DNA from: Serratia inhibens
GTDB taxonomy: Bacteria > Pseudomonadota > Gammaproteobacteria > Enterobacterales > Enterobacteriaceae
Reading direction: 5' to 3'
DNA length: 64,000 nucleotides
Assembly (NCBI RefSeq): GCF_003591175.1
Contig: NZ_QYYG01000005.1
Location: 186,001 to 250,000 of the forward strand
The notes beneath the pieces are model-generated. The model was not told the origin of the DNA. It saw nothing but the letters and a program-made list of their open reading frames with translations, and did not search any database. This document shows, piece after piece, positions 10,930-61,756 of this stretch. Numbering within the stretch: the stretch's first letter is position 1; every line of letters starts with the position of its first letter. The position numbers and the translations under genes were made by a program.

Positions 10930-11268
10930 TTAACTGACCATCATATTGATGTTGAGGTTGTACATAATCCAGAGTGAACCCACAACAACGATACCGATGA
11001 TCATAGCGGTGAACAGCAATGCCACCAGGTTCCAGCGCTCTTCCGATGAGGTATTCATGTGCAGGAAGTAAATCAGGTGAACAATTACCTGAATTACCGC
11101 CATGCCGACTACAACCGCCAGGATGGTTGAGTGAGAGGCTGTGCCGCTCATCACCATCGCAAATGGAATCACCGTCAGGATGATCGACAGGATAAAGCCG
11201 ATCAGATATGACTTAACGCTACCGTGGCTTGCGCCGCCGTGAGAAGTTTCATGGGATGAATGGCTCAT
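10930..11268 (-). CDS. cyoD: Cytochrome bo3 ubiquinol oxidase subunit IV
   Basis: A 112-residue subunit with a His/Ser-rich cytoplasmic N-terminus and three transmembrane helices. The start at 11,268 ([10 protein letters not shown]) overlaps the cyoC stop by the ATGA tetranucleotide, the usual coupling in this operon. A longer upstream open frame exists but lies within cyoC and is not used. CyoD is needed for assembly and copper-site formation in the oxidase. Confidence 0.96.
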
Positions 11269-40635: not shown

Positions 40636-41127
40636 ATGAAACTCTGGCAAATCGTAGGTGGAGCAGCAGCATTGACGATCACCCTGGCGGGTTGTGCTCA
40701 AAAGAGCGCCAATGTGCCTGTGCCGGCAGCGGAAAACCCAGCGATTGCGCAAACGCAGATTCAGGGCCCGGCGGTAACTGGTTCGGTTAACATTCGCCAG
40801 CGTATTGCGCTGCCACCGGATGCCGTACTGACGGTTACGCTCTCTGATGCCTCATTGGCGGATGCGCCGTCGAAAGTGATTGCCCAGCGCGCGGTGCGCA
40901 CTGAAGGCAAGCAGGCGCCGTTTAATTTTGTACTGCCTTACAACCCGGCAGATATTCAGCCCAACGCGCGTATCATTCTGAGCGCGGCCATTACGGTAAA
41001 CGGTCGGATGACCTTTATTACCGACACTATCCAGGAAGTAGTGAACCGCAACGGCACCCGAGCCGACCTGCAGTTGGTTCCGGTGCAGGGCATTGCGGTT
41101 CAGGCGACGCCAACGGCCATGCCGTAA
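40636..41127 (+). CDS. ybaY: YbaY family lipoprotein
   Basis: A 163-residue outer-membrane-type lipoprotein: signal peptide with lipobox LAGC, a short linker, then a YbaY/YscW-like beta domain (GSVNIRQRIALPPDAVLTVTL...) that resembles type III secretion pilot proteins. The start at 40,636 follows an AAAAAAGGAGACC ribosome-binding site; an upstream in-frame extension of 29 codons is rejected. Function unknown in E. coli. Confidence 0.92.
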   Translation: MKLWQIVGGAAALTITLAGCAQKSANVPVPAAENPAIAQTQIQGPAVTGSVNIRQRIALPPDAVLTVTLSDASLADAPSKVIAQRAVRTEGKQAPFNFVLPYNPADIQPNARIILSAAITVNGRMTFITDTIQEVVNRNGTRADLQLVPVQGIAVQATPTAMP

Positions 41128-41157
41128 ACCGGCAATCCTGAAGCAGTAAGAGATCAA

Positions 41158-41190
41158 CAGCCTTTGCGCTCCGGCCAAAGGCTGTTTTGT
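41158..41190. terminator. Terminator between ybaY and atl
   Basis: CAGCCTTTG and CAAAGGCTG form a perfect 9-bp stem, followed by TTTTGTTGC on the plus strand. Confidence 0.82.
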
Positions 41191-41192
41191 TG

Positions 41193-41507
41193 CTACCAGC
41201 GCCAGCCGTAAATCAGCAGATCGACCGTACTGTGCGCGCCAAAGATGATCCCCTCACCCAGCAGTGCCTGGCGCTGACGTTGAAAGTCCTCCCCCTGCTG
41301 CGAAATCTGGCCATGGCGGTTAATCACCCGGTGCCAGGGCAGGCTGCTGCCTTCCGGCAAGCGCCTCAATACGCCACCGACCTGACGTGCGGCGCGCGGT
41401 GAGCCGGCCAGCCGAGCTACCTCGCCATAGGTCGTGACCTTGCCATAGGGAATGGCGGCTACCACGTGGAACACGCGCTGGCTGAATGTGGCGTCTTCTG
41501 GTTCCAT
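41193..41507 (-). CDS. atl: Alkyltransferase-like protein Atl (YbaZ)
   Basis: A 104-residue alkyltransferase-like protein. It keeps the O6-alkylguanine transferase DNA-binding fold, but the active-site Cys of the PCHRV motif is Trp (LPWHRVINRHG), so it cannot accept alkyl groups. Atl proteins bind O6-alkylguanine and hand it to nucleotide excision repair. Located next to ffs as in E. coli. Confidence 0.94.
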   Translation of the reverse strand: MEPEDATFSQRVFHVVAAIPYGKVTTYGEVARLAGSPRAARQVGGVLRRLPEGSSLPWHRVINRHGQISQQGEDFQRQRQALLGEGIIFGAHSTVDLLIYGWRW

Positions 41508-41595
41508 TTATGTTTTCCTGCTGCGGCAAAAAACCAAGGATGGAAGTGTGCCACAGCCGAGGTGGGTAAGAAAACAGCGGTTGGTCCCGGTTGGC

Positions 41596-41624
41596 TTGCT
41601 ATTTGGCTGGCCATCACCGATAAT
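41596..41624 (+). promoter_or_regulatory. Sigma-70 promoter of ffs
   Basis: TTGCTA (41,596-41,601), a 17-bp spacer and GATAAT (41,619-41,624) lie upstream of the 4.5S RNA. A start 7-9 nt after the -10 would leave a leader of about 25 nt before the mature 5' end, the length of the RNase P-cleaved leader known for E. coli pre-4.5S RNA. Confidence 0.65.
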
Positions 41625-41657
41625 GCCCACCGCTTCGCAGTCTTGGAAGCCGTCAAT

Positions 41658-41770
41658 GGGGGCCCTGTTGGTTCTCCCGCAACACTAACTTGTGAACTCG
41701 GTCAGATCCGGAAGGAAGCAGCCGCAGCAGGTGACGTGTGTGCCGGGATGTAGCTGGCAGGGCCTCCACC
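41658..41770 (+). ncRNA. ffs: 4.5S RNA of the signal recognition particle
   Basis: A 113-nt hairpin RNA with terminal arms GGGGGCCCTG and CAGGGCCTCC that pair. The conserved SRP domain IV is present, including CAGATCCGGAAGGAAGCAGC (the GGAA tetraloop), as is the asymmetric AGCAGGTGACG internal loop that binds Ffh. It is close to E. coli ffs base for base. Its 3' end is repeated about 6.9 kb downstream, marking it as an island insertion site. Confidence 0.96.
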
Positions 41771-41776
41771 AATTTC
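41752..41776 (+). repeat. Left island boundary: 25-bp ffs 3'-end direct repeat (attL-like)
   Basis: This 25-bp stretch ends 6 bp past the mature ffs gene and recurs in the same orientation at 48,620-48,644 with one mismatch (T/G at the 14th base). Direct repeats of an RNA gene's 3' end are the classic trace of site-specific integration. No integrase gene is present between the repeats. Confidence 0.7.
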
Positions 41777-42024
41777 AGTGACTGATTGATTTATCGGTTA
41801 TTAATTGAAATTTAGCGCATTGAATTCGTAGGTGTCACACTTTTTGTGTATCACTCAGGATGCTAACTCCGTCTCATCCCCGTCTCACCCGTCTCACCCG
41901 TCTCACCCGTCACGGCGTTTGGAATTACCGAAGAGTCAACCTCACAGCTCCAAAACGTCGGGAAATCCACGTATTGACCTGCTCCCCATTGATTAACACA
42001 CCACGACGTCAGTAATGTCTTCAT
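41777..42024. other. AT-rich DNA with short tandem repeat beside ffs
   Basis: The start of the island. It contains four and a half tandem copies of the 9-bp unit CCGTCTCAC at 41,869-41,917, the first with one change. No coding frame is convincing; the one open frame across the repeats translates them to a GET/TGE run and is taken as chance. Confidence 0.6.
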
Positions 42025-42592
42025 TGATCCTGCCCCGAACAATACCGGCCTAAGCGATATTCTGATTTTCAAATTGTTCCAGGCTAAAACTGCGGCCGCC
42101 ACTGTGACGACGCCAACGATTGTAATCACACTCGATATAATTAAACACCGCAGCTCGCATTATTTCCAGGTTGGCAAAATGCTCACGTGGATGCATTCCA
42201 CCTTCAGTGCGAGGAAAAAGCTTTCTACGCAGGTATTATTGTAACAGTTACCTTTCGCGTTCATGCTGCCAGGCAGAACTATGTCACGGTCACCCTTTAT
42301 TCCGCTCAGGCAATTGCCGTTTGGGTCGGGCATTTTTACGGCAAGTTCGCTTTCACGCTCTGATGATGTCAGTTGCTGCTGTTGTTTGCTGTGCCGGGTA
42401 TAGCGTTGCGATTTATACATGCAGGTTGAGTTGGCGTGCGGCTGCCGCAACACTGATATGCTCGGAGACGAAATTCCTGCGTATATTATTTCCGCGTTTT
42501 CTTACTGTTTGATGTTGGTTTTATCATCTGAATCATCTCCGGTTGAGTGTTTACTCATTTAGCTGCGAGTTTGCTATTTCTGGATAAAGTCA
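42025..42592 (-). mobile_element. Internally deleted IS3-type insertion sequence remnant
   Basis: Read leftward, the right end is TGACTTTATCCAGAAATAGC, resembling the IS3 inverted repeat TGATCTTACCCAGCAATAG. The left end (plus strand TGATCCTGCCCCGAACAATA) is its counterpart. Between them lie the start of OrfA ([13 protein letters not shown], then a stop and frameshift, later [13 protein letters not shown] and QLTSSERE) and the end of OrfB ([19 protein letters not shown], frameshift, then [14 protein letters not shown]). About 690 bp of the middle, including most of the DDE domain, is missing against a ~1.26-kb IS3. No matching target duplication is visible. Not functional. Confidence 0.85.
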
Positions 42593-42883
42593 TTATTTAT
42601 GCAGATATAAAGTTACATTATGAAAAGCTTTATTTGTTGACATATTTAAAGTTAAAAAAATATATACCAAATGGTATAAATTAATCAAGCGTTATATTCC
42701 TCTGATATTTAACATTTCAATAGATTGTTTAACCATTTTAATGCATTGTTTTTCGATTAATGCGTAAATTATGGCTTTTTAGCAGAATATGTTTCTTAAA
42801 TATTAGCACTGCTTATTTATTGTTGTAATGGTGTCAGATTTACCCTATGCTTTTTAACACTTGATTTACACAGGGTAGTGGTT
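42593..42883. other. AT-rich leader of the AfsA-type operon
   Basis: 290 bp of very AT-rich DNA between the IS remnant and the first gene of the biosynthetic operon. It presumably holds the operon promoter, but AT-rich hexamers are too frequent here to choose one. No coding frame is supported. Confidence 0.5.
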
Positions 42884-43495
42884 ATGAAAAAAACGATGTT
42901 AATACTGGCACATCCAAAATTTGATGAGTCAGTGGTCAATAAGATTCTTATCGAAAAAGTAATGTCAAATAATGATGTTTATATCAATAATCTATCCGAG
43001 AGATATAAAGACGAAAAATTCGATATCGAAGATGAGCAGAGGTTATTGATCCAGCATGAGCGCATTATTTTTCAATTCCCACTCTATTGGTATTCATATC
43101 CTGCCATCTTAAAAAAATGGATGGACGATGTTTTTACTCCAGGATTCGCATACGGAAGAAAAGGAGAATTATTGGGAACCCATTTGGTAGGTAAACAATT
43201 CAGCATCGTCTCTACCATCGGCGGCGTCGAACAAATGTATACGCCTGGAGGCATTGTTGGATCGTCAGTCAACGAGTTGCTCAGGCACTTACAGGCCACA
43301 ATAGAGTATGTTGGGGGTGTTTATACTTATCCTCATTTTGTATATGGATCGGCTTTTGTAAAAAATGAAGAGCATTTAAATCAGGGCGTCGAGTCATATC
43401 TTGAGTATATTTCAAGTGAATATTACCCGAAAGATAAACAGTATGAAAAATTGGCCAAGCTAGCCTATGAATATCAAGCGAAAGGTTATTACTGA
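42884..43495 (+). CDS. Flavodoxin-fold NAD(P)H oxidoreductase (KefF/MdaB-like)
   Basis: A 203-residue protein of the flavodoxin_2 family. Visible hallmarks are the N-terminal ILAHPKFDES, the FQFPLYWYSYPAILKKWMDD loop and TPGFAYGRKG, followed by STIGG. These match FMN-dependent quinone reductases such as KefF and MdaB. The ATG at 42,884 has an AGGG ribosome-binding site; a GTG two codons earlier is possible. It is the first gene of the AT-rich operon and overlaps the next gene by 29 bp, so it is probably a redox step in the pathway, reducing a quinone-like or enone intermediate (inference). Confidence 0.8.
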   Translation: MKKTMLILAHPKFDESVVNKILIEKVMSNNDVYINNLSERYKDEKFDIEDEQRLLIQHERIIFQFPLYWYSYPAILKKWMDDVFTPGFAYGRKGELLGTHLVGKQFSIVSTIGGVEQMYTPGGIVGSSVNELLRHLQATIEYVGGVYTYPHFVYGSAFVKNEEHLNQGVESYLEYISSEYYPKDKQYEKLAKLAYEYQAKGYY

Positions 43496-43985
43496 TAAGG
43501 TTGTCGAGTTACCAGATAATATTACGCTAGTAGACAAGCACGTTGACTATCTAAGCTGCCAATGTCACGAAATACCGAAAGGTATTACGGCTCAAGAAGC
43601 CTACATAACCATGACGTCCTCTCAGCCAAAATGGTTAAGCATGTTATTCTCAATAAGAGATATTCTTGGCAAGGTTGGTGGTGTTAAGGCGGTAAAAGGT
43701 TTCAATAAGTTAGAAAAAAAAGATTTTGAAATATACGATAAAATTCATTTTTTTAATATTGTTGAAAAATCTGATGATAAATTAACCTTGATGCTAAGAG
43801 ACTCTCATCTTGATGTGTGCCTTTGCTTGGTTATAGTCAACAGCAAGTTAAACTCGCATACAAACGAATTATATTTGGCGACATCTGTAAAAAACAAAAA
43901 CTTCTTTGGCAAGCTTTATATGGTGCCGGTTTCTTTTATGCACCCGTTTATTGCAAAAAAACTTATTTTTAATATCAATGCATAG
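43467..43985 (+). CDS. DUF2867-like protein
   Basis: A 172-residue protein that resembles the DUF2867 family (SRPBCC-like), with the conserved beginning of a Leu-Asp/His-rich strand (HVDYLSCQCHEIPKG) and the central segment SMLFSIRDILGKVGGVK. DUF2867 domains are often fused to NAD(P)-binding epimerase domains, which fits an oxidoreductive operon. The start overlaps the preceding gene by 29 bp, implying coupled translation. The protein has no signal peptide. A precise function cannot be given. Confidence 0.65.
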   Translation: MNIKRKVITDKVVELPDNITLVDKHVDYLSCQCHEIPKGITAQEAYITMTSSQPKWLSMLFSIRDILGKVGGVKAVKGFNKLEKKDFEIYDKIHFFNIVEKSDDKLTLMLRDSHLDVCLCLVIVNSKLNSHTNELYLATSVKNKNFFGKLYMVPVSFMHPFIAKKLIFNINA

Positions 43986-43998
43986 TGAGAGATGAATT

Positions 43999-45141
43999 AT
44001 GAATTCCAATAAAGATCTTGTTGAATGCAGTTTGGTGCATAAAACAGATGCTAACGATGTTTTGGTTTACAAGCCTGAAATAGTTTTAAAGAGCGTAATA
44101 ACTCAATCTGAATATAAAGATTTAGTTCACCTTTTACCGGGTGAGCAACAAAAAATCGATTCAGTGTACTATGCAAGCGAAGATATCTATATATTAAGGA
44201 CATTGCCTCACTGCATCCCCCAGTCGGTTGGTGCGAGTATGCTTTCAGAAATTAATTTAGAAGGATTTTACGTTAGTGACGGAAATGGAATGCTGAAAAT
44301 AGTTCCACAGTATGTCCCGCTTCATGTAGAGGAAGCAATAAGACGTAAGCTGTCCCCCCATACGCTTCCAATTCAACAGGCCGAGAAGGAAATCATCGCA
44401 TCTCTAAGTAATGATGCTGTTGTTAATTCCTATATGCTTTTGAATAATACCAGAGATTTATATTTTTATAAAAAAAATCATGAGCATATTCCTGGCATGA
44501 TGTTAATTGAGGCTGCAAGGCAGGCGGCTTACGATTATGTTTATAAATACACCGGTTATGCATTCAAAAGCGTGTCAATTTCAATGTCAAAAATAGACGT
44601 TGATTTTTTTGATTATTCAATATCTTCCTATCCTGTCGAGATCTTATTCTCTCACAGGGATAAGGTACGTCGTCACAAACCCAAAAAGATCGAAAAACAA
44701 GCTTGGTTTTATCAAAGGGGTAGACTTACAGGGACGTTTTATTTAGAGGGTGGCATTATTCCAATGACTATTTTTCCTCAAATGAGAAATGAAAAATACC
44801 CTAAAGAGCATTTGTTTTTTCCTTTCAAAGACAATAGGTATGTAGAGATCCTTGACAGCAATCTTGATGCACTGACAATGAAAGTGATTTCATTATCACT
44901 ATGCAGTATTACGGTAGAGAATGACTATAACAGTCAGACTATGAACATTACCGATTTAAGGATTGGTGGCGTTACATTTCCAATGGAGGGTTATTCGTTA
45001 AACCCTAACAATAGAAATGAACTTAACATTGCACTTGGGGGGCTCTCAAAATCGCAAAAGCTACTTTTAAATAATATCATCAATACCCATTATTACCACA
45101 AAGACACCTTCGAACTAGTGGGTTTACCTTTACCTAACTAA
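43999..45141 (+). CDS. AfsA-type gamma-butyrolactone synthase homologue
   Basis: A 380-residue protein with the AfsA hotdog signature HEHIPGMMLIEAARQAA at 161-177, which lines up with NDHVPGMLLLEAARQAA of Streptomyces AfsA. The N-terminal LVHKT (12-16) also lines up with the AfsA start region. AfsA condenses a beta-ketoacyl-ACP with dihydroxyacetone phosphate to begin A-factor-type butyrolactones. Compared with Streptomyces AfsA, the first hotdog repeat is reduced and about 110 extra C-terminal residues (270-380) are present. It is the third gene of the operon, 13 bp after the DUF2867-like gene and 13 bp before the flavin oxidoreductase gene. The chemistry is inferred from the family. Confidence 0.82.
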   Translation: MNSNKDLVECSLVHKTDANDVLVYKPEIVLKSVITQSEYKDLVHLLPGEQQKIDSVYYASEDIYILRTLPHCIPQSVGASMLSEINLEGFYVSDGNGMLKIVPQYVPLHVEEAIRRKLSPHTLPIQQAEKEIIASLSNDAVVNSYMLLNNTRDLYFYKKNHEHIPGMMLIEAARQAAYDYVYKYTGYAFKSVSISMSKIDVDFFDYSISSYPVEILFSHRDKVRRHKPKKIEKQAWFYQRGRLTGTFYLEGGIIPMTIFPQMRNEKYPKEHLFFPFKDNRYVEILDSNLDALTMKVISLSLCSITVENDYNSQTMNITDLRIGGVTFPMEGYSLNPNNRNELNIALGGLSKSQKLLLNNIINTHYYHKDTFELVGLPLPN

Positions 45142-45154
45142 AAGAGGGAGAGGA

Positions 45155-46315
45155 ATGAAGCATAATGACATGAAGTTATTTGATGGGTTGCATATTAATA
45201 AAAACATCACATTGAAAAACAGGCTTTTTTTTTCTTCTGTAGGGCTTGATCTGGCAACCGAAGACGGACTCTTCTCTGATGCCCTTTATTCTTTTTACAA
45301 GGATATGATTGATGGGGAAATGGGGATGGTGAAAATAGGAAATTCGACTGTCTCACCGACCTCCAGACTTCATGCTACAGGCCTTGCGCTATACAACAGC
45401 AAGCATGCTAAAGCACTTGAACCCATTATTAACTATGCAGCGGAAAAAGATGTTCTACTGGTCATTCAGTTACAACATTATGGTTCCCAAGGTTCGACCA
45501 AACATACTGGTGTACCACTTTTATCGCCTAGTGGTCAGTATTGTAAAAAAATGACCCGTAAATTTCCTGATGACACAATTATGGCGATGTCACTGGAAAG
45601 TGTAAGACAAGTAATAAATGAATTCGCCATTGCGGCCTCGTTAGTCAAACAGGCAGGTGGCAAGGCGATTCAAATTCAGGCTGGCAATGGTTATTTAATT
45701 AGCAGTTTCTTGTCCCCTTATACCAACCACAGGTGCGACGATTATGGAGGTAACGATAGAAATAGGGGGAGAATATTAATAGAGATAATTCAAGAGATTC
45801 AATTACGCACAAATAACGAATTAGCTATTTTTGTCAGGCTAGGCATCGATGATTGTTTTGATGAAGATATCGGACAAAAACCTGAGTTTATGAGGTGTAT
45901 TGTCGAAGAGATGGAAAAATTGGGCGTTGCGGGTATTGAATGTTCAATCTGTATAGGTGAAACATTTGGTCGCTTCCTGAACGGCTACGATCAATCCATA
46001 AAGAACAGGCTCTTTGAAGGGGCTATGTTAATAAAATCTTTTACGTCTACAATACCTGTAGGTTGTACCGGATTAGTAAGATCAATTGATGATGCGGAGT
46101 CATTATTACAGCAATATAAATTAGATTACATTGGTATGGCAAGAGGGTTACTGGCGGACCCTAAACTGTTCCTTAAATACAATGCTAACGTACCGGGTAA
46201 TGTATGCCGCTTTGATGGTTATTGTTTTCGTGATAAAAGCAATCCAGAGTTAGACAGAGTCTATTGCTGTGTAAACCCTGATTATTTGAGAAATCCACTT
46301 ATTAAATACGAGTAA
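45155..46315 (+). CDS. Old-yellow-enzyme family NADH:flavin oxidoreductase
   Basis: A 386-residue TIM-barrel flavoenzyme of the OYE / 2,4-dienoyl-CoA reductase family. QLQHYGSQG (105-113) and the signature SSFLSPYTNHRCDDYGG (183-199) are clear. The usual substrate-binding pair (His-x-x-Asn/His before GYL) is Gln175 and Asn178 in IQAGNGYL, so the first His is missing. Four Cys (351, 357, 371, 372) sit where iron-sulfur members have their cluster motif, but the spacing is not canonical. In this operon it could reduce the butenolide double bond (inference). The ATG follows GGGAGAGG. Confidence 0.85.
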   Translation: MKHNDMKLFDGLHINKNITLKNRLFFSSVGLDLATEDGLFSDALYSFYKDMIDGEMGMVKIGNSTVSPTSRLHATGLALYNSKHAKALEPIINYAAEKDVLLVIQLQHYGSQGSTKHTGVPLLSPSGQYCKKMTRKFPDDTIMAMSLESVRQVINEFAIAASLVKQAGGKAIQIQAGNGYLISSFLSPYTNHRCDDYGGNDRNRGRILIEIIQEIQLRTNNELAIFVRLGIDDCFDEDIGQKPEFMRCIVEEMEKLGVAGIECSICIGETFGRFLNGYDQSIKNRLFEGAMLIKSFTSTIPVGCTGLVRSIDDAESLLQQYKLDYIGMARGLLADPKLFLKYNANVPGNVCRFDGYCFRDKSNPELDRVYCCVNPDYLRNPLIKYE

Positions 46316-46320
46316 ACATT

Positions 46321-47094
46321 ATGTACACTGAATTTTCTAATAAGAATGTGGTTGTCGTCGGCGGTACTAATGGAATGGGCCTGGATTTGGTATCCAGATT
46401 GATTTCGCTCAATGCGAACGTAATTGTCCTTGGCAGGAATATTGACAAGCCAGAGTTGGAAGAATTCAAGCCAAGATGTGAATTTATCAAGTGTGATATC
46501 TCAAATCAGGATGATGTCGAAAAAGCCTTTGATTCCATTGCCAGTAATTACGACGTTATCCATTATGCCGTAAATAATGCGGGTGTCACTGCTCCTTACA
46601 CAGAAGTCGCGAATCTGGATATGGGAAAATGGAAATCCATCATTGATACTAATTTGACTGGGACAGCTCATTGTTTGCAAAGACAAATCAAGCTTATTTC
46701 AAAAAATAAAAATGGTGCTATTGTTAACGTATCTTCGTGTGCTGGACTGCAAGCCTTAAAATTACAAGCTGCTTATTCCGTGAGCAAGGCCGCGGTCAAC
46801 ATGCTGACTCAGGTTGCATCCATCGAATGCGCTGAAGATGGCGTGGATTCTTATGCCGTGCGTATTAATGCTGTTGCACCGGGCCCAATACTAGGAGGGA
46901 TGAATACCGAAGAAAATCTGTTACAAAATCCAGAGCGAACTAAAAGAAAAGTCTCTGTGACGGCCATGAAAAGGTTTGGAACTGCGACAGAAGTTGTCAA
47001 TAGTATCCTCTGGTTGCTAGGTCATCAATCATCTTATATTACGGGCATAGTATTACCGGTAGACGGCGGGTTTAGTTCTGGGAAATTTAACTGA
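46321..47094 (+). CDS. Short-chain dehydrogenase/reductase
   Basis: A 257-residue classical SDR. GGTNGMG (14-20) binds the cofactor, NNAG is at 85-88, and the catalytic Ser139, Tyr152 and Lys156 are in place. NAVAPGPILGGMN and the C-terminal GIVLPVDGG complete the family pattern. Gene spacing of 5 bp to the OYE gene and 1 bp to the next SDR indicates one operon. Likely a keto- or butenolide-reducing step; in Streptomyces an SDR (BprA, BarS1 type) finishes butyrolactone synthesis. Substrate unknown. Confidence 0.88.
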   Translation: MYTEFSNKNVVVVGGTNGMGLDLVSRLISLNANVIVLGRNIDKPELEEFKPRCEFIKCDISNQDDVEKAFDSIASNYDVIHYAVNNAGVTAPYTEVANLDMGKWKSIIDTNLTGTAHCLQRQIKLISKNKNGAIVNVSSCAGLQALKLQAAYSVSKAAVNMLTQVASIECAEDGVDSYAVRINAVAPGPILGGMNTEENLLQNPERTKRKVSVTAMKRFGTATEVVNSILWLLGHQSSYITGIVLPVDGGFSSGKFN

Positions 47095-47095
47095 G

Positions 47096-47848
47096 ATGAC
47101 TGCGACTGGAAGACGAATTTTTATAACGGGTGTCAGTCGAGGGATTGGTAAAGAACTCGCTCTTTACCACCTCGAGAACGGCGACCACGTTTATGGTGTG
47201 TCACGCTTTTTAGGTGATGACTTCTCCACCTATACCAATTTCCATCATCTTGGATTAGATCTCTCTGAAACTGATTTAATACCAAAATATTTAAATAATT
47301 TCTTCGAGAGCAACCCATGCACTGAATTCTCTCGTGTATATTTGAATGCGGGCCTTATAGATGATATCTATTTTTTAAATGAATTAAATATCGAGAAGTT
47401 TAACTATATACTGTCTGTGAATCTAGCAGCCTATAAACAGGTTTTGGATTTTTTCATTAATCATAAAGTGATTGATATCAGCGAAGTTGTCGTGTCCAGT
47501 TCGATTGCTGGGGTGAGGGCACGGGCTGGCATGTCAGCTTATGCAGTTTCCAAAGCTGCATTAAATATGTTAATGAAAATATATGCATTAGAAAACCCTT
47601 CGATTTTTATCGTTGTGGCAGGGTTATGTATTTTTGATTCGGCGGTATCGCAAGTTGTCACGCCGGGAAATACTAACTTAAAACGTTTTAAGGAACTACA
47701 AAATCTGGCAAATCGATTGAATACCCCGAAGTACATGGTAAGTGCAAAGGAACGTTCTATGGATTTGATTTTTGTTTTGGATCATCTCGTTGAGTTGGGT
47801 GTGTCCTCCGGGGATTTTTTTGAGATCCGTGAAATTTTGAAAATATAA
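47096..47848 (+). CDS. Short-chain dehydrogenase/reductase
   Basis: A 250-residue SDR more divergent than its neighbour. ITGVSRGIG (10-18) is the nucleotide-binding motif, NAG is at 84-86, and Ser135/136, Tyr149 and Lys153 form the catalytic set. The PG motif after strand 6 is replaced (VVAGLCIFDSA), so the substrate loop differs from that of the upstream SDR. It starts 1 bp after the upstream stop and is the last gene of the AT-rich operon. Its stop codon lies just 5 bp before the start of homology to a prepilin peptidase relic. Confidence 0.85.
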   Translation: MTATGRRIFITGVSRGIGKELALYHLENGDHVYGVSRFLGDDFSTYTNFHHLGLDLSETDLIPKYLNNFFESNPCTEFSRVYLNAGLIDDIYFLNELNIEKFNYILSVNLAAYKQVLDFFINHKVIDISEVVVSSSIAGVRARAGMSAYAVSKAALNMLMKIYALENPSIFIVVAGLCIFDSAVSQVVTPGNTNLKRFKELQNLANRLNTPKYMVSAKERSMDLIFVLDHLVELGVSSGDFFEIREILKI

Positions 47849-47853
47849 GTTAT

Positions 47854-48085
47854 CATGCTGGCCGTAATATAGATGGCCTGTTTTATCGATGCCGGTATCG
47901 ACGGGTTTTTATGTTGGCGTTATTTTCGCCATTGTCAGCAATGTCGGTTATCGATACGGAACGGTAACCGTTGCCTTATTGTTCGACGCCGTCATTGCTG
48001 TAGAGCAGATTGTTGTGGCATAGCATCGCGCAGCTGCAATTTTTACCTGCCGTGGGTGATGGGGGCTGTCTTTGTAATTATCGCA
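47854..48085 (+). pseudogene. Relic of a prepilin peptidase gene (gspO fragment)
   Basis: This segment aligns along its length with codons ~107-184 of the intact gspO at 61,246-61,476 on the same strand. Shared stretches include GCCTGTTTTA, TGGCGTTATTTTCG, GTCGGTTATCGATA, TTGTTGTGGCATAGCAT and GCAATTTTTACC. Identity is about 75% by eye, with small indels that break the frame. Neither the N-terminal nor the C-terminal part of the peptidase is present. It is a decayed duplicate or the remains of a second secretion locus. Confidence 0.82.
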
Positions 48086-48619
48086 TAACTGTAAGAACAA
48101 TCACTCTCAGGTTAATAGTGTCATTTTTATTGAGTATTAGGAAAGAGCATTCCGGGACGCCTCATCAAGAGGATAAAAACGCCACGCCCCGGGAATGCTT
48201 AGGGGATGATAAAGCATGTGTAAATGGGGTTAAGCTCCCTTTCCTGGATCGTCTTAGTGTTCTTTGACTGATTGAGTGAAAACAGAAGGCCGCGAGCTCC
48301 TTAGTTTCTTCACTGTATTTAGAACTTCTGAGAACCCCAGAAGCAGTATCTTCCATCTCACCTCCTGTTATGATGAGTCATACTTCTTTGAGATAGCGCA
48401 GGGCCTACTAATCTTTTTTGGATATCGGGTGTATTGGTATCTGCCAGATTTTTATGGGTAAAGCGCTGTGAAATTTTTCCCCTTCTCCGTTGGCCACGTG
48501 ATTTCACAGATTTGTCGCAGTGTTGCCAACGTTGATTTCCCTCCCCGCAGGTGTCACAATAATGGTGCATCATCTACTTGTAGTGCATTGAATAAAAAGG
48601 TTTTTTATCTTTCAGCGTG
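48086..48619. other. Unassigned right part of the island
   Basis: About 530 bp with no recognisable gene. It contains an inverted repeat AGCATTCC...GGAATGCT at 48,146-48,199 (arms 8-11 bp, loop of about 30 nt). On the minus strand two short frames are joined by TGAGATG (48,573-48,358, 71 codons with a CxxC start; 48,356-48,165, 63 codons) behind an AGGAGGT ribosome-binding site. I recognise neither product, and they may be debris of a mobile element. Confidence 0.45.
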
Positions 48620-48644
48620 AGCTGGCAGGGCCGCCACCAATTTC
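48620..48644 (+). repeat. Right island boundary: ffs 3'-end direct repeat (attR-like)
   Basis: AGCTGGCAGGGCC-G-CCACCAATTTC, 24 of 25 bases identical to 41,752-41,776 at the end of ffs and in the same orientation. The sequence before it is not ffs-like, so only the 3' tail was duplicated, as expected for an attachment site. Confidence 0.7.
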
Positions 48645-48987
48645 TGCCTTGGCCGTTTTCTCGTCGCCGCTCTTATGCACTTTTTCAGCCTGTAACTCAG
48701 TCTGTTCATTCGATAACTGTATGTTTTAATAAGTCATCCGAGCAGATTTTTACCGAAATAATAATATGATGTATCAGTAATGTTGGTATCAATGTTTTTT
48801 CTTATTGCGAGACACCGGAATAGTATAATAACCATCTTAATGTTACGGAGTGTTGGTGCAATAGTTAAGGTATTGTTTCAATAATGTCATTGATGCCTGA
48901 AGTTGTCTGACGATAACTTTGATATTGACTATATATAGGTTGGTACGGGCTTTTGGACAATAATCAGGCATCAAATTAGGCTGTAAC
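48645..48987. other. Upstream region of the secretion-locus regulators
   Basis: About 340 bp of AT-rich DNA between the island boundary and the first regulator gene. No coding frame or clear operator is seen. It must hold the promoter of the 48,988 regulator. Confidence 0.4.
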
Positions 48988-49785
48988 ATGATTTATATCA
49001 TTAATAATAACGTTACCTTTAATACCGGAAATGGCTCGTTAAAGAGCATGAAAAATGGTAAGGAAGTATTTTTATCAAGCCTGAATATCAGAGTGTTCAA
49101 ATGCTTGCTTGAGTATGGCGTGAAGCCTGTCAGCCGAGAAGATATTTTTAAGCAGGTTTGGGGTGAACAAAGTCTGAACGTATCCTCCGCGACGCTAAAC
49201 CAATATATTAGCCTGACACGCCGGGCATTGCTTTCTGTAGGATTTAACGATCGCCTGATAATCACGGTGGCGAAAACCGGTTATAAAATTAACAAAGCAA
49301 TATCAATAAGCGAGTTGGACGCTGAAAATCCCAAATCGCCAGTTGGCGAAGCGACCGCAGTGATGCTTTCTGACAGCAGAGTCAAAACGGGACAAACCCG
49401 TTATCATCTGGCGATTTTTCTTCGCACTTTATCTATTGTCTTGCCTCTTGCCCTCCTGTTTTTTTTGTTTTTTTACTATCAGCATCACCGCGAGAATGAA
49501 AAACGGAATTTCCTTTCTTATCTTGGTATGGTAAATGGTTGCCCGGTTTATTACTCTGGGAAATACCTCGATAAAAAAGTTGGCAGTTATTTGCAGTTTT
49601 TGACTAAAAATAATCTTTATGGAAATCGGTGTGGCAAGGATGAATTCATTATTTCACGAGTTAATCATTCTATTAATGCCACGGAAGATAGTGGCAGGCA
49701 GTTCATCGCAAAGTGTGTAATGGACAGCAATTCCTTGTATCACATTTGTGAGAGTGAGTATATCCGCGCATGGAAAAAAAATTAA
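48988..49785 (+). CDS. ToxR/CadC-type membrane-anchored winged-helix regulator
   Basis: A 265-residue protein. The N-terminal OmpR/PhoB-type winged helix spans about residues 20-105, with recognition region QVWGEQSLNVSSATLNQYISLTRRAL and wing VAKTGYKIN. A linker and one transmembrane helix (141-164) follow, then a ~95-residue periplasmic domain with four Cys that could form disulfides. This is the ToxR/CadC layout: it senses in the periplasm and acts on DNA at the membrane. The stop overlaps the next gene by 16 bp. Its position upstream of the T2SS genes suggests control of secretion. Confidence 0.82.
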   Translation: MIYIINNNVTFNTGNGSLKSMKNGKEVFLSSLNIRVFKCLLEYGVKPVSREDIFKQVWGEQSLNVSSATLNQYISLTRRALLSVGFNDRLIITVAKTGYKINKAISISELDAENPKSPVGEATAVMLSDSRVKTGQTRYHLAIFLRTLSIVLPLALLFFLFFYYQHHRENEKRNFLSYLGMVNGCPVYYSGKYLDKKVGSYLQFLTKNNLYGNRCGKDEFIISRVNHSINATEDSGRQFIAKCVMDSNSLYHICESEYIRAWKKN

Positions 49786-50264
49786 CTTTATTGTCGGCAG
49801 TATTGATTTCCCTTTGTATCATTATGGGAGGGAGTGTGTATTACTTTACCCATTCTCGCAATGACCTGAAAGGCATCAACTGTGAGGCAAATGCTAAATT
49901 TACTTATATCAATAATCTGGAAAATAGCAGTACACCGAAGGATATTCGGCTTGTTCTAAAAATGAACTATGTTTTTCTTCCAAAAAGTAAAGGTGTTCTG
50001 ACTCTTACCGGAGTAGCAAGCAATGGTGATAAGCGATACTTTGTTAACCGTGATATGAGTTTCTCCTATGTAGCTCAGGATAATTTTTATCGGTTCCAGT
50101 ATGCCGGTGAGCGGCGATCTGCCAGAGATACTTTACCTGCCGATGTTTACTCTTATTTTTTCAATAGTGAAACTAGTTTTTATCACATTGATTATCTTGA
50201 TAAAGTCACCCTGATGTTTAGTAATGTTTACTCTCCGATGTTCCTTTGTAATATCAACATATAA
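49770..50264 (+). CDS. FidL-like/ToxS-like small membrane protein
   Basis: A 164-residue protein with one N-terminal membrane helix (residues ~5-26) and a periplasmic beta-rich domain. Cys38 and the C-terminal CNINI carry single Cys residues. It overlaps the upstream ToxR-type regulator gene by 16 bp. The layout is that of ToxS or FidL-type partners, which stabilise or modulate an adjacent ToxR-like protein in the periplasm. I infer the partnership from the overlap and topology; the family assignment is tentative. Confidence 0.65.
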   Translation: MEKKLTLLSAVLISLCIIMGGSVYYFTHSRNDLKGINCEANAKFTYINNLENSSTPKDIRLVLKMNYVFLPKSKGVLTLTGVASNGDKRYFVNRDMSFSYVAQDNFYRFQYAGERRSARDTLPADVYSYFFNSETSFYHIDYLDKVTLMFSNVYSPMFLCNINI

Positions 50265-50667
50265 CGCCACCTAATAAAAAGTAGCCAGAAGTATTGTCCA
50301 TAGGTTGTTTTTTTCTCATCAATAACCTTCTTTATTCTGGGGCTGTGGTTTGCCTTACCATCTACGTTATACTCTTATAATTAATATATAAGGTAAGTTA
50401 CCCTTATTGTTTCGTATTTTTGTTATTTTATATTTTAACGTAACTCATTGTTTTTTATGTATTATATTTAATTAATTTTGATTTTAAAATGTTATAAATT
50501 TTATGTTTTATGTTTGGTTTTTAATCTGTTGCCATTGGGTTTTTGTCATGTTTTATTAGATGGCTCATCCGGTTTTACTCTGTCCCAGTTTCAGTTATGG
50601 CAGGTTTTGTGGTGTTGGAATAGAAGTGACACCAAGCTTTTGGTTTATTTTTATCAATAGGTGATAG
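50265..50667. other. AT-rich gap between the two regulator units
   Basis: About 400 bp of very AT-rich DNA. It contains a 60-codon frame at 50,478-50,660 with no clear ribosome-binding site and no recognisable motif, which I do not call as a gene. Probably the promoter of the 50,668 regulator and possibly of the whole gsp operon. TAATATATAAGG at about 50,380 is a candidate -10 area only. Confidence 0.4.
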
Positions 50668-51189
50668 ATGGACGCACATAGCATTGCTCTGAACAACACT
50701 CAAATGGAAAATGAAGAGGTTGTTTTAAATAACAACGATAAAACATTGTTGTTTAAAAAAGAGAATGTCATCATTGAAATGACCGAGTTGCAACGCCGGT
50801 TTATGCTTTGTCTGCTTAGCGGTATAAATAAAAAAAATGATATCATTCGAGTGGTGTGGTTTTACAATCATGAAACTATCAGCGATAACAACTATCACCA
50901 AATGATATTTCAATGCCGTTCACTGTTGTCACGACATGGCATCCCTGCTCAGGTGATTAAGACCATCCCTCGATTTGGCGTTATGTTGAGTTTTCAGACC
51001 CGTACGCAGAAAACTACCGCCAGTATAGAGCCTGAAAATGATACTTCATCGAGAACTGGTCAGGGAAATAAGTTTTCAGAGAACGTTAATTATAGAGTTG
51101 TACTGACAATCACTCTGCTTTTTTCGGCGGTTGTGCTTATGGGGGCATCGGTCTGGCATTTCATTGGGGAATACCACCAATTTATATGA
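50668..51189 (+). CDS. Second ToxR-type winged-helix protein with C-terminal membrane anchor
   Basis: A 173-residue protein. Residues ~25-110 look like a compact, diverged winged-helix domain (TELQRRFMLCLLSGINKKNDIIRVVW...NNYHQMIFQCRSLLSRHG...VIKTIPRFGVML). The ending resembles the ToxR/CadC wing 'I-T-V-P-R-x-G-Y'. A Ser/Thr-rich linker and one transmembrane helix (143-165) follow, with only a few residues outside. It lacks a periplasmic sensor domain, so it may depend on a partner. It lies 16 bp before gspC and is probably part of the operon. Confidence 0.7.
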   Translation: MDAHSIALNNTQMENEEVVLNNNDKTLLFKKENVIIEMTELQRRFMLCLLSGINKKNDIIRVVWFYNHETISDNNYHQMIFQCRSLLSRHGIPAQVIKTIPRFGVMLSFQTRTQKTTASIEPENDTSSRTGQGNKFSENVNYRVVLTITLLFSAVVLMGASVWHFIGEYHQFI

Positions 51190-51205
51190 TTACCTGGAGG
51201 CTTAA

Positions 51206-51709
51206 ATGAGTAAGCAGTTTGTTTTTTTTATTTCATTTTTCTTTCTGGTGAATGTGGTTTTTATTATATCTCAACTTTTTAATATTTACCGTGTCGTTCA
51301 GGTCGATGCTTCGTTGCGGCATAATATTGTGCCTGAAAATGGGCGTTATGTCGGTTTTCCTGCGAAAGATGATATAGAAAAAATCAATGCTGTTGGTTTT
51401 TTTGGCCACCATGAGGAAATACGAGGAGGTGGAAATAACGGCATGAGCTATAAAGTTAACTCACAGGGGGTAAATGACGATGTTATCAATAATGCCCCTG
51501 AAACGCGTCTGGCAGGAAAAATTACCGGCTTGCTATTGAGCGATAACCATAAATACAGCCTGGTAGTAATAGAGCGCGCCGGTAAGCAGGCCAGCTATGG
51601 TATGGGCGATCGCATCGCTGACAGCAACGTTGTTATATTAAGAATACTGCAAGATAAAATATTGCTTGATGAGAATGGTTACTACGTCTCGATGATTTTA
51701 AAAGACTAG
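51206..51709 (+). CDS. gspC: Type II secretion inner-membrane protein GspC (short form)
   Basis: A 167-residue GspC. One N-terminal membrane helix (about 8-30) is followed by the HR domain, which has the typical LAGKITGLLLSDNHKYSLVVIE core and GDRI...VVILRILQDKILLDENG. Normal GspC proteins are ~270-300 residues with a C-terminal PDZ or coiled coil; this one stops after the HR domain. HR domains bind the GspD N0 domain, so the essential contact is kept. The gene is the first of the gsp operon, 16 bp downstream of a regulator gene. Confidence 0.85.
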   Translation: MSKQFVFFISFFFLVNVVFIISQLFNIYRVVQVDASLRHNIVPENGRYVGFPAKDDIEKINAVGFFGHHEEIRGGGNNGMSYKVNSQGVNDDVINNAPETRLAGKITGLLLSDNHKYSLVVIERAGKQASYGMGDRIADSNVVILRILQDKILLDENGYYVSMILKD

Positions 51710-60925: not shown

Positions 60926-61756
60926 ATGTTATTCGCCATTAAAAATATGGCCAGCGACTACTGGTTATTATTCAGCGCAGTGCTGAGTCTTTGCTTGGGC
61001 AGTTTTATTAATGTGGTTATTTACCGATTGCCCAAGATGCTTGAACGCGAAGAGTTCTGGGTGAGTAATGGAAATAATCCTGAGGTATTTAATTTTTTTC
61101 TTCCCGGTTCGACGTGTCCGCACTGTTTAGAGAAAATAAGGCCCTATGATAATATTCCGCTACTGAGCTGGTTGATATTACGCGGGCGTTGCCGCCACTG
61201 TCGGGTGGCTATTTCCTCGCGTTATCCTCTGGTTGAATGGGTTACCATGTTGGCCGGAATATCGATAGCCTGTTTTACCGGTATCGGTATCGACTGGTTT
61301 TTTATGCTGGCGTTATTTTCGTTATTGTTAGCACTGTCGGTTATCGATATGGACCGGCAGTTGTTGCCCGATTGTTTGACTCTGTCATTGTTGTGGACCG
61401 GGTTGTTGTGGCATAGCATTGCGCAGCCGCAATTTTTACCCGCCGCAGTAATGGGCGCTGTCGCGGGTTATCTCATCCTTTGGCTGCTTTACTGGGGGTT
61501 CCGGTTATCGACCGGCCGCGAAGGTTTGGGGTATGGCGACTTTAAATTACTGGCGGCGCTGGGGGCCTGGGGGGGATATGAATCTCTGCCGCAGATCTTG
61601 TTGTTTGGGTCGTCCTGCAGCCTGCTCTGGCTACTGCTGCTGCGTGTGATGCGTTCTCGCAGCTGGTCGCAGCCCTTGCCGTTCGGGCCTGGGCTGGCGA
61701 TAGCCGGATGGTCGTGGGTGGTTTACCGCGAGATTATCCAACCGTTTGTTGGCTAG
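60926..61756 (+). CDS. gspO: Prepilin peptidase GspO
   Basis: A 276-residue bifunctional prepilin peptidase and N-methyltransferase that processes the pseudopilins of this operon. The cytoplasmic zinc-binding domain has Cys64, Cys67, Cys89 and Cys92 (CPHC and CRHC). The catalytic Asp pair is in SVIDMDRQLLPD (Asp141/143 region) and GYGDFKLLAALGAWGG. It has eight membrane segments. An AGAGGGAAAT ribosome-binding site precedes it. A decayed partial copy of this gene lies at 47,854-48,085. Confidence 0.95.
   Translation: MLFAIKNMASDYWLLFSAVLSLCLGSFINVVIYRLPKMLEREEFWVSNGNNPEVFNFFLPGSTCPHCLEKIRPYDNIPLLSWLILRGRCRHCRVAISSRYPLVEWVTMLAGISIACFTGIGIDWFFMLALFSLLLALSVIDMDRQLLPDCLTLSLLWTGLLWHSIAQPQFLPAAVMGAVAGYLILWLLYWGFRLSTGREGLGYGDFKLLAALGAWGGYESLPQILLFGSSCSLLWLLLLRVMRSRSWSQPLPFGPGLAIAGWSWVVYREIIQPFVG

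Follow-up and report, generated by a model that had tools for sequence, protein, structure and literature searches.

The Streptomyces hormone synthases of the ScbA, BarX and AfsA type carry the AfsA domain, and to our knowledge AfsA-family enzymes outside the Actinobacteria have been little studied. As described in the sections of two reports used here, the gladiostatin/gladiofungin polyketide synthase (PKS) of Burkholderia gladioli has an AfsA-like chain-release domain, named PBS, and AfsA-like domains make butenolides in Burkholderia (PMC7756379, PMC7756420); the PBS domain condenses 3-ketothioesters with dihydroxyacetone phosphate (DHAP) in vitro (PMC7756379). A putative gamma-butyrolactone (GBL) cluster of Ruegeria pomeroyi DSS-3 is presented, in an excerpt of its report, as required for killing competitors (PMC7426152). 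From the bee gut, part of one paper already reports an antiSMASH cluster type labeled “butyrolactone” in Gilliamella (PMC9598484), and Table 2 of another lists a 330-amino acid AfsA gene specific to a honeybee group of Snodgrassella (PMC9239279). Here, we describe an operon of six genes, A to F, in a 64,000-nucleotide stretch of Serratia inhibens (contig NZ_QYYG01000005.1, 186,001 to 250,000; “the window”), the third of which encodes an AfsA-like protein. We find that the operon is inserted at the RNA gene ffs and shared, in order, with Gilliamella. We lean modestly toward a biosynthetic reading: a compact operon that moves horizontally and makes a small, acyl-derived and possibly butenolide-like metabolite.

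An initial annotation, made from the sequence alone, had placed six tightly packed genes on one strand and named a family for each. The open reading frame (ORF) list confirms the arrangement and Pfam the families (E-values in brackets):

Gene A: 42884-43495, plus strand, flavodoxin fold (Pfam Flavodoxin_2, 2.5e-39)
Gene B: 43467-43985, plus strand, DUF2867 protein (Pfam DUF2867, 6.9e-23)
Gene C: 43999-45141, plus strand, AfsA-like protein (Pfam AfsA, 3.6e-8, above cut-off)
Gene D: 45155-46315, plus strand, old yellow enzyme (OYE) type (Pfam Oxidored_FMN, 5.3e-43)
Gene E: 46321-47094, plus strand, first short-chain dehydrogenase/reductase (SDR) (Pfam adh_short_C2, 7.1e-46)
Gene F: 47096-47848, plus strand, second SDR (Pfam adh_short, 4.7e-15)

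Spacing from gene A to gene F is −29, +13, +13, +5, and +1 nt, with gene B starting 29 nt inside gene A. For gene A, the ORF list gives a GTG start at 42878, and the initial annotation chose the ATG at 42884. Promoter and terminator scans gave signals not above those of shuffled sequence.

Four Gilliamella (bee-gut Orbaceae) genomes carry genes A, C, D, E, and F in the same order as Serratia (the Gilliamella assignment of genomes G260, G430, and G115 is inferred from a genus grouping shared with G391 and G280). Gene B is intact in three of the four loci. It had seemed absent from G430 when searched with the Serratia query, a result replaced by a partial match to a Gilliamella query (residues 1-102, 35% identity, E 6e-14) that lies in no ORF of 80 amino acids or more. 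Across the five loci with a gene C homologue, the flavodoxin, OYE, SDR, and SDR genes are ordered in all five, and the DUF2867 gene is intact in four and partial in one, so the concern that the genes might rarely be found together is not borne out. Identity to the Serratia protein is 62-65% for A, 52-54% for B, and 45-48% for C (three Gilliamella proteins aligned for each), and 64-65% for D, 68-72% for E, and 51-52% for F (four for each). The recurrence of one gene order in four further genomes, with proteins 45-72% identical, goes beyond chance. The 29-nt overlap of A and B is also identical in all four loci measured (the window, L001, L002, and L013).

In all 27 pairs within Gilliamella, covering genes A to F, the nonsynonymous rate (dN) is lower than the synonymous rate (dS), with ratios up to about 0.32 (e.g., 0.192/1.11 for gene C and 0.107/1.56 for gene E); between Serratia and Gilliamella, synonymous sites are saturated or nearly so. 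This pattern indicates purifying selection on all six genes in Gilliamella. A YciI gene lies downstream in all four Gilliamella loci (Pfam YCII in the two scanned, the other two being 77-87% identical to the first). Regulators stand near some Gilliamella copies: Rrf2 in L013, and LysR and DeoR in L017. In Gilliamella App4-10, the operon is followed immediately by ORFs that look transposase-like by eye (L002:12334-14251).

Gene C scores 33.9 bits against Pfam AfsA (PF03756), above the gathering cut-off of 24, and has the conserved core HEHIPGMMLIEAARQ (residues 161-175), which is kept in all five Serratia and Gilliamella proteins. The initial annotation, noting that AfsA makes the committed step of GBL hormones in Streptomyces, proposed a candidate butyrolactone or butenolide pathway. 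We find no support for gene C as the committed enzyme of an A-factor or GBL pathway. Against the ScbA/BarX equivalog (NCBIfam NF041195), gene C reaches 33.6 bits, far from the cut-off of 200. It has one Pfam AfsA stretch versus two in Streptomyces ScbA/BarX (one Streptomyces protein scanned), and its alignment with ScbA/BarX profiles from Streptomyces is limited to the surroundings of the second-repeat motif. The first-repeat motif, D(P/S)xLLxExxRQ, is present in four of four Streptomyces proteins and in none of the five gene C proteins. An N-terminal strand pattern, VH(K/R)x4(D/E)V, occurs in all five gene C proteins and in three of four Streptomyces ScbA/BarX proteins, versus 12 of 10,000 shuffled proteins and none of three Ruegeria-like type proteins; its spacing was chosen post hoc, an earlier version one residue longer having matched none of nine proteins. 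Gene C may have a degenerate first repeat. The AfsA label is thus partly right: by its sequence, gene C is a diverged relative of the Streptomyces hormone synthase, for which a hormone label is not secure.

The AlphaFold model of gene C has a mean confidence score (pLDDT) of 50.9 and is poor over residues 120-270, where the initial annotation expected a hotdog fold. Residues 143-253 are mostly below 50, and their element order, E-E-H-E-E-E-E, would fit a hotdog fold. Relative to ScbA/BarX, gene C carries additional C-terminal residues, and in this one model of low overall confidence residues 269-375 resemble PilZ. All Foldseek E-values were above 0.001. Pfam PilZ (PF07238) matched none of five C-terminal segments at E up to 10, and hhalign of the C-terminal part against the host's own YcgR-like and BcsA-like proteins gave nothing. 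RxxxR and (D/N)xSxxG, the cyclic di-GMP (c-di-GMP) motifs of PilZ, are absent from the C-terminal parts of all five proteins. A search of the PDB with the whole protein found no sequence relative (best E 0.59).

Among the other genes, gene A encodes a flavodoxin-fold NAD(P)H oxidoreductase that is KefF/KefG-like (NCBIfam KefF, 135 bits, below the cut-off of 210). Gene B encodes a stand-alone DUF2867 protein that appears START/SRPBCC-like in a low-confidence model. Gene D is a single-domain protein with the score and barrel length of an old yellow enzyme (PF00724, 148 bits, residues 7-347), for which the best NCBIfam models, mycofactocin OYE and NamA, fall below cut-off. The active site of old yellow enzymes usually has a His/Asn or His/His pair. 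In the gene D segment IQIQAGNGYL, Gln stands where His is usual, and the Gln/Asn arrangement (IQIQAxNGYL) is found in all five aligned proteins; this conserved Gln fits a dedicated substrate. Gene E is a FabG-like SDR, and gene F a distantly benzil-reductase-like SDR (top NCBIfam model 68 bits, cut-off 258). Overall, the evidence supports a single conserved, horizontally acquired operon that combines four redox enzymes and one protein of the AfsA superfamily.

The operon is rare. Searching GTDB genomes with the gene C protein yielded two Gilliamella loci among 43 pattern matches, and genome searches added two more genomes. In samples that overlap, hold one genome per species, and were searched with more than one alignment, gene C is found in 1 of 30 Serratia species (no match in the 29 others), in 4 of 44 Orbaceae, in 2 of 392 genomes of the family (its own and G1274), and in 1 of 369 and 1 of 398 genomes of the class and phylum, in both cases its own genome. 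The order sample gave 5 of 394, one of them spurious: the match in G216 (E 7e-4, a 58-amino acid frame with stops) was dropped. A search of 72,556 plasmid records gave no match to the gene C protein, and at megablast sensitivity nothing in 20,395 Escherichia coli records matched the operon DNA. Gene B had two weak plasmid matches at 27-31% identity (Vibrio and Methylobacterium); near the Vibrio match, the only neighborhood inspected, there was no AfsA-type gene.

A distant relative, in Enterobacteriaceae genome G1274 (locus L096), keeps the gene order AfsA, OYE, SDR, SDR, with identities of 24, 35, 44, and 34%, respectively. Upstream of this core are LysR, a major facilitator superfamily (MFS) exporter, KAS III, and AsnB (an asparagine-synthase homologue); downstream are a 4'-phosphopantetheinyl transferase and an F420_oxidored-type protein. 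Its AfsA protein scores 42.4 bits in Pfam, and its OYE retains the active-site His. Genes A and B have no match in this locus at E up to 0.01, and no YciI-like ORF is present among those of at least 110 amino acids, a limit that would miss a 93-amino acid protein. The cluster occurs in 1 of 14 genomes of its genus; its AfsA protein has no plasmid match, and its DNA no E. coli match. Among relatives of G1274, 6 of 286 matched, and five of these, weak and confined to the hotdog part, were set aside as other AfsA types. Judged by gene content, the neighbors in G1274 favor a specialized-metabolite role and are the best indication we have of a core devoted to thioester-based metabolite synthesis.

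The position of the operon in the Serratia genome is defined by the following features:

41666-41762, plus strand: ffs, which encodes 4.5S RNA (the bacterial small SRP RNA); coordinates are those of the Rfam match (RF00169, 72 bits, E 7.4e-15), and the insertion lies at its 3' end
41752-41776, plus strand: left 25-bp direct repeat, the 3' end of ffs, attL-like, 96% identical to 48620-48644
48620-48644, plus strand: right 25-bp direct repeat, attR-like (repeat search and empty-site junction)
41777-48644, no strand: inserted island of 6868 bp, measured so as to take in the right repeat but not the left (empty site in G015)
42024-42587, minus strand: degenerate insertion-sequence (IS) remnant (transposase-like fragment, minus-strand ORF 42160-42453)
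47849-48070, plus strand: degenerate piece of the prepilin peptidase gene gspO; its alignment with window 61240-61461 spans 223 columns at 82% identity

In Serratia genome G015, the 3' end of ffs joins sequence matching 48620 onward, which constitutes an empty site. Its alignments cover window 41000-41778 at 95% and 48620 onward at 77%, and overlap by the repeat plus 2 nt. This junction and the repeats show that 41777-48644 is an insert of about 6868 bp, with the crossover somewhere in the repeat. The low GC content noted in the initial annotation stands, at 38.1% for the operon versus 55.2% for the window without 41777-51700, but the AT-rich stretch comprises two parts, the insert and 48645-51700. 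The latter, at 37.6% GC, is yet native, since a relative carries it directly adjoining ffs: G015 has nearly all of it, and parts occur in six or more further Serratia genomes. GC at third codon positions is 35-40% in the operon, 15-27% in the Gilliamella copies, and 61-71% in the window's host genes (four measured); a direct donor among the sampled Gilliamella or within Serratia is therefore unlikely.

Within 41777-48644 we found no integrase and, besides the six genes, no listed ORF longer than 113 amino acids. The DNA of the IS remnant is 72-74% identical (in five listed records) to sequence on 4454 plasmid records, often in multiple copies, and this matched sequence is common on enterobacterial plasmids; its ORF has no Pfam match, and from its motifs, judged by eye, we take it to be of IS3 type. 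The gspO fragment begins directly after the stop of gene F, in the position of the Gilliamella YciI gene, and a search of window 41700-50000 gave no remnant of YciI.

In Serratia genome G013 (L078:1445-11027), ffs is occupied by another insert, different from this one and almost 10 kb long, in which a tyrosine recombinase immediately follows ffs; the ffs 3'-end sequence recurs there at 11010 (three mismatches) and, exactly and on the opposite strand, at 2790. With this second insert, ffs looks like a site where islands insert in Serratia. Three proteins are encoded at window 48988-51189, on the stretch that separates ffs from the type II secretion (gsp) genes: one of the Trans_reg_C (CadC-like) type, one FidL-like, and a short one that has no Pfam match. 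The AT-rich native stretch extends up to gspC.

For a biosynthetic operon of the kind we favor, we infer the chemical steps, the product, and the biological role as follows. Gene C would draw its substrate, a beta-ketoacyl thioester or a related acyl thioester, from the fatty-acid synthesis of the host and condense it with DHAP or another small carbonyl to a ring precursor, by analogy with AfsA/PBS enzymes. The OYE-type gene D would reduce a C=C bond, and the two SDRs would reduce or oxidize keto or hydroxyl positions. The START-like DUF2867 protein might bind or cyclize an intermediate, while gene A would provide reducing power, and in Gilliamella the YciI-like protein may additionally take part. 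Beyond the cited papers, the scheme draws on the general chemistry of AfsA and SDR enzymes. An AfsA-like domain catalyzes such condensations in the Gram-negative gladiostatin pathway, as stated in a section of its report (PMC7756379).

Several points weigh against this proposal. The operon has no phosphatase, nor does one adjoin it, and other AfsA-type clusters examined here have a HAD hydrolase within or beside them. No carrier protein, transporter, or regulator lies inside it. As the first-repeat motif is missing, DHAP condensation may not be the reaction of gene C, and a purely enzymatic role would leave the PilZ-like resemblance of its model unexplained. In addition, the operon is rare, the AfsA gene is split into two ORFs in Gilliamella App4-10, and gene B is incomplete in G430. 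Chemistry and role are assigned from sequence, and the product is a predicted one.

Another explanation, to which we give a minor but appreciable share of belief, is a reductive detoxification or catabolic operon, in which a flavodoxin-type quinone reductase, the OYE, and the SDRs would act reductively on enones or quinones of plant or insect-gut origin, with the hotdog protein as a thioesterase- or dehydratase-like helper. Four of the six genes belong to general redox families, and the top models of two (KefF/KefG for gene A, mycofactocin OYE/NamA for gene D) are consistent with this, although neither reaches its cut-off. The insect-gut habitat of Gilliamella and the patchy, accessory distribution of the operon also agree with it. 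Against it stand the strict gene order together with an AfsA-family protein, the altered yet conserved OYE active site, and the KAS III, AsnB, phosphopantetheinyl transferase, and exporter genes that adjoin the distant homologous core. A true GBL or A-factor-type hormone pathway seems unlikely to us. Here, gene C would join beta-ketoacyl-ACP and DHAP, the OYE and an SDR would reduce the butenolide and the side-chain ketone, and the product would be a signal. The Pfam AfsA score, the resemblance of the core to the second ScbA repeat, the presence of reductases of the required kinds, and the antiSMASH label in Gilliamella (PMC9598484, in part) speak for such a pathway; the equivalog score and the single AfsA stretch without a first-repeat motif speak against it. 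No ScbR/ArpA-type gene was seen nearby, versus one in three of four Streptomyces ScbA/BarX loci. The initial annotation had likewise seen no ArpA/TetR-type receptor. Pfam scans of the operon's six proteins and of seven window neighbors, two of them downstream, gave none, nor did inspection by eye of the other listed ORFs, the rest of the genome not being searched.

We consider it very improbable that the Serratia copy is a decaying, nonfunctional acquired fragment. The absence of an integrase, the IS remnant at the left, the gspO fragment that replaces YciI at the right, the restriction to a single Serratia species, and the damaged genes in App4-10 and G430 would suit decay. However, all six Serratia ORFs are full length relative to Gilliamella, the examined motifs are kept, and the tight spacing is retained. 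More speculative than the biosynthetic operon we favor, and doubtful in our view, is a new AfsA-type synthase family that joins a hotdog core to a PilZ-derived domain whose c-di-GMP binding is no longer canonical. With the altered OYE and two SDRs, it would make an undescribed class of small molecules exchanged horizontally among insect-gut enterobacteria, and the PilZ-like part would gate the synthase through a nucleotide or partner, or hand over the acyl substrate.

In open-licence PMC literature, searched by titles and abstract beginnings, we found no description of this gene set or of its occurrence in Serratia, and none of the island at ffs, the PilZ-like end, or the lack of a first repeat. 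The initial annotation spoke of a pathway in an enterobacterium, which holds for Serratia but is too narrow in scope, given the cluster type reported in part of PMC9598484. A self-contained, short operon common to a bee-gut symbiont genus and Serratia could be removed or expressed in one step, so that its product can be searched for quickly, and ffs now stands out as a place to look for islands in Serratia.

Like gene C, the Streptomyces ScbA/BarX/AfsA synthases have an AfsA domain, a second-repeat core (DHxPGMxxxEAxRQ, versus the gene C core given above), and the N-terminal VH(K/R)x4(D/E)V pattern. Unlike them, gene C has one AfsA stretch, no first-repeat motif, and, in its model, a C-terminal PilZ-like domain; it scores far below the equivalog cut-off, with no ScbR partner seen nearby and with other accessory enzymes. 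The PBS domain of B. gladioli, likened here by description rather than by sequence comparison, shares with gene C the AfsA family and a Gram-negative host, one producer being a beetle symbiont according to the sections used; in contrast, gene C stands alone, with no PKS. The Ruegeria cluster, as far as the excerpt describes it, is also compact, horizontally acquired, and Gram-negative, and contains an AfsA-domain gene, but its AfsA type and neighbors differ from those of the operon, and its Serratia counterpart is a second AfsA locus. That locus, in the same Serratia genome (G000:C2, about 155500-163100; L016:5524-13110), is homologous to the Ruegeria killing/GBL cluster (LysR 52% identical, a 205-amino acid protein 46%, AfsA 39.5%, a 287-amino acid protein 57%, and a HAD hydrolase 37%) and also holds thiolase-, EamA-, and SDR-like genes.

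Further AfsA-type loci are found in four Enterobacteriaceae genomes (L106 to L109, in G1177, G1144, G1256, and G1257, respectively). L106 combines AfsA with a HAD hydrolase, P450, and MFS; L108 has ORFs of matching size beside AfsA, with MFS confirmed; L107 has AfsA with TrpA-like, PRA-isomerase-like, and amine-oxidase proteins; and L109 has AfsA with HAD and thiolase. Genome G115, inferred to be Gilliamella, encodes another, more canonical type of AfsA protein with two stretches (106.7 bits; L105:5770-6801), beside an MFS transporter. The Gilliamella “butyrolactone” type, compared by label rather than by gene content from part of its report, belongs to the same genus as our four homologous loci and may include some of them, and with the two-stretch protein of G115 the label may cover more than one cluster. 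A “butyrolactone” label derived from a domain match may hide different kinds of AfsA locus: judged by domain content and neighbors, it can cover at least three in Enterobacterales.

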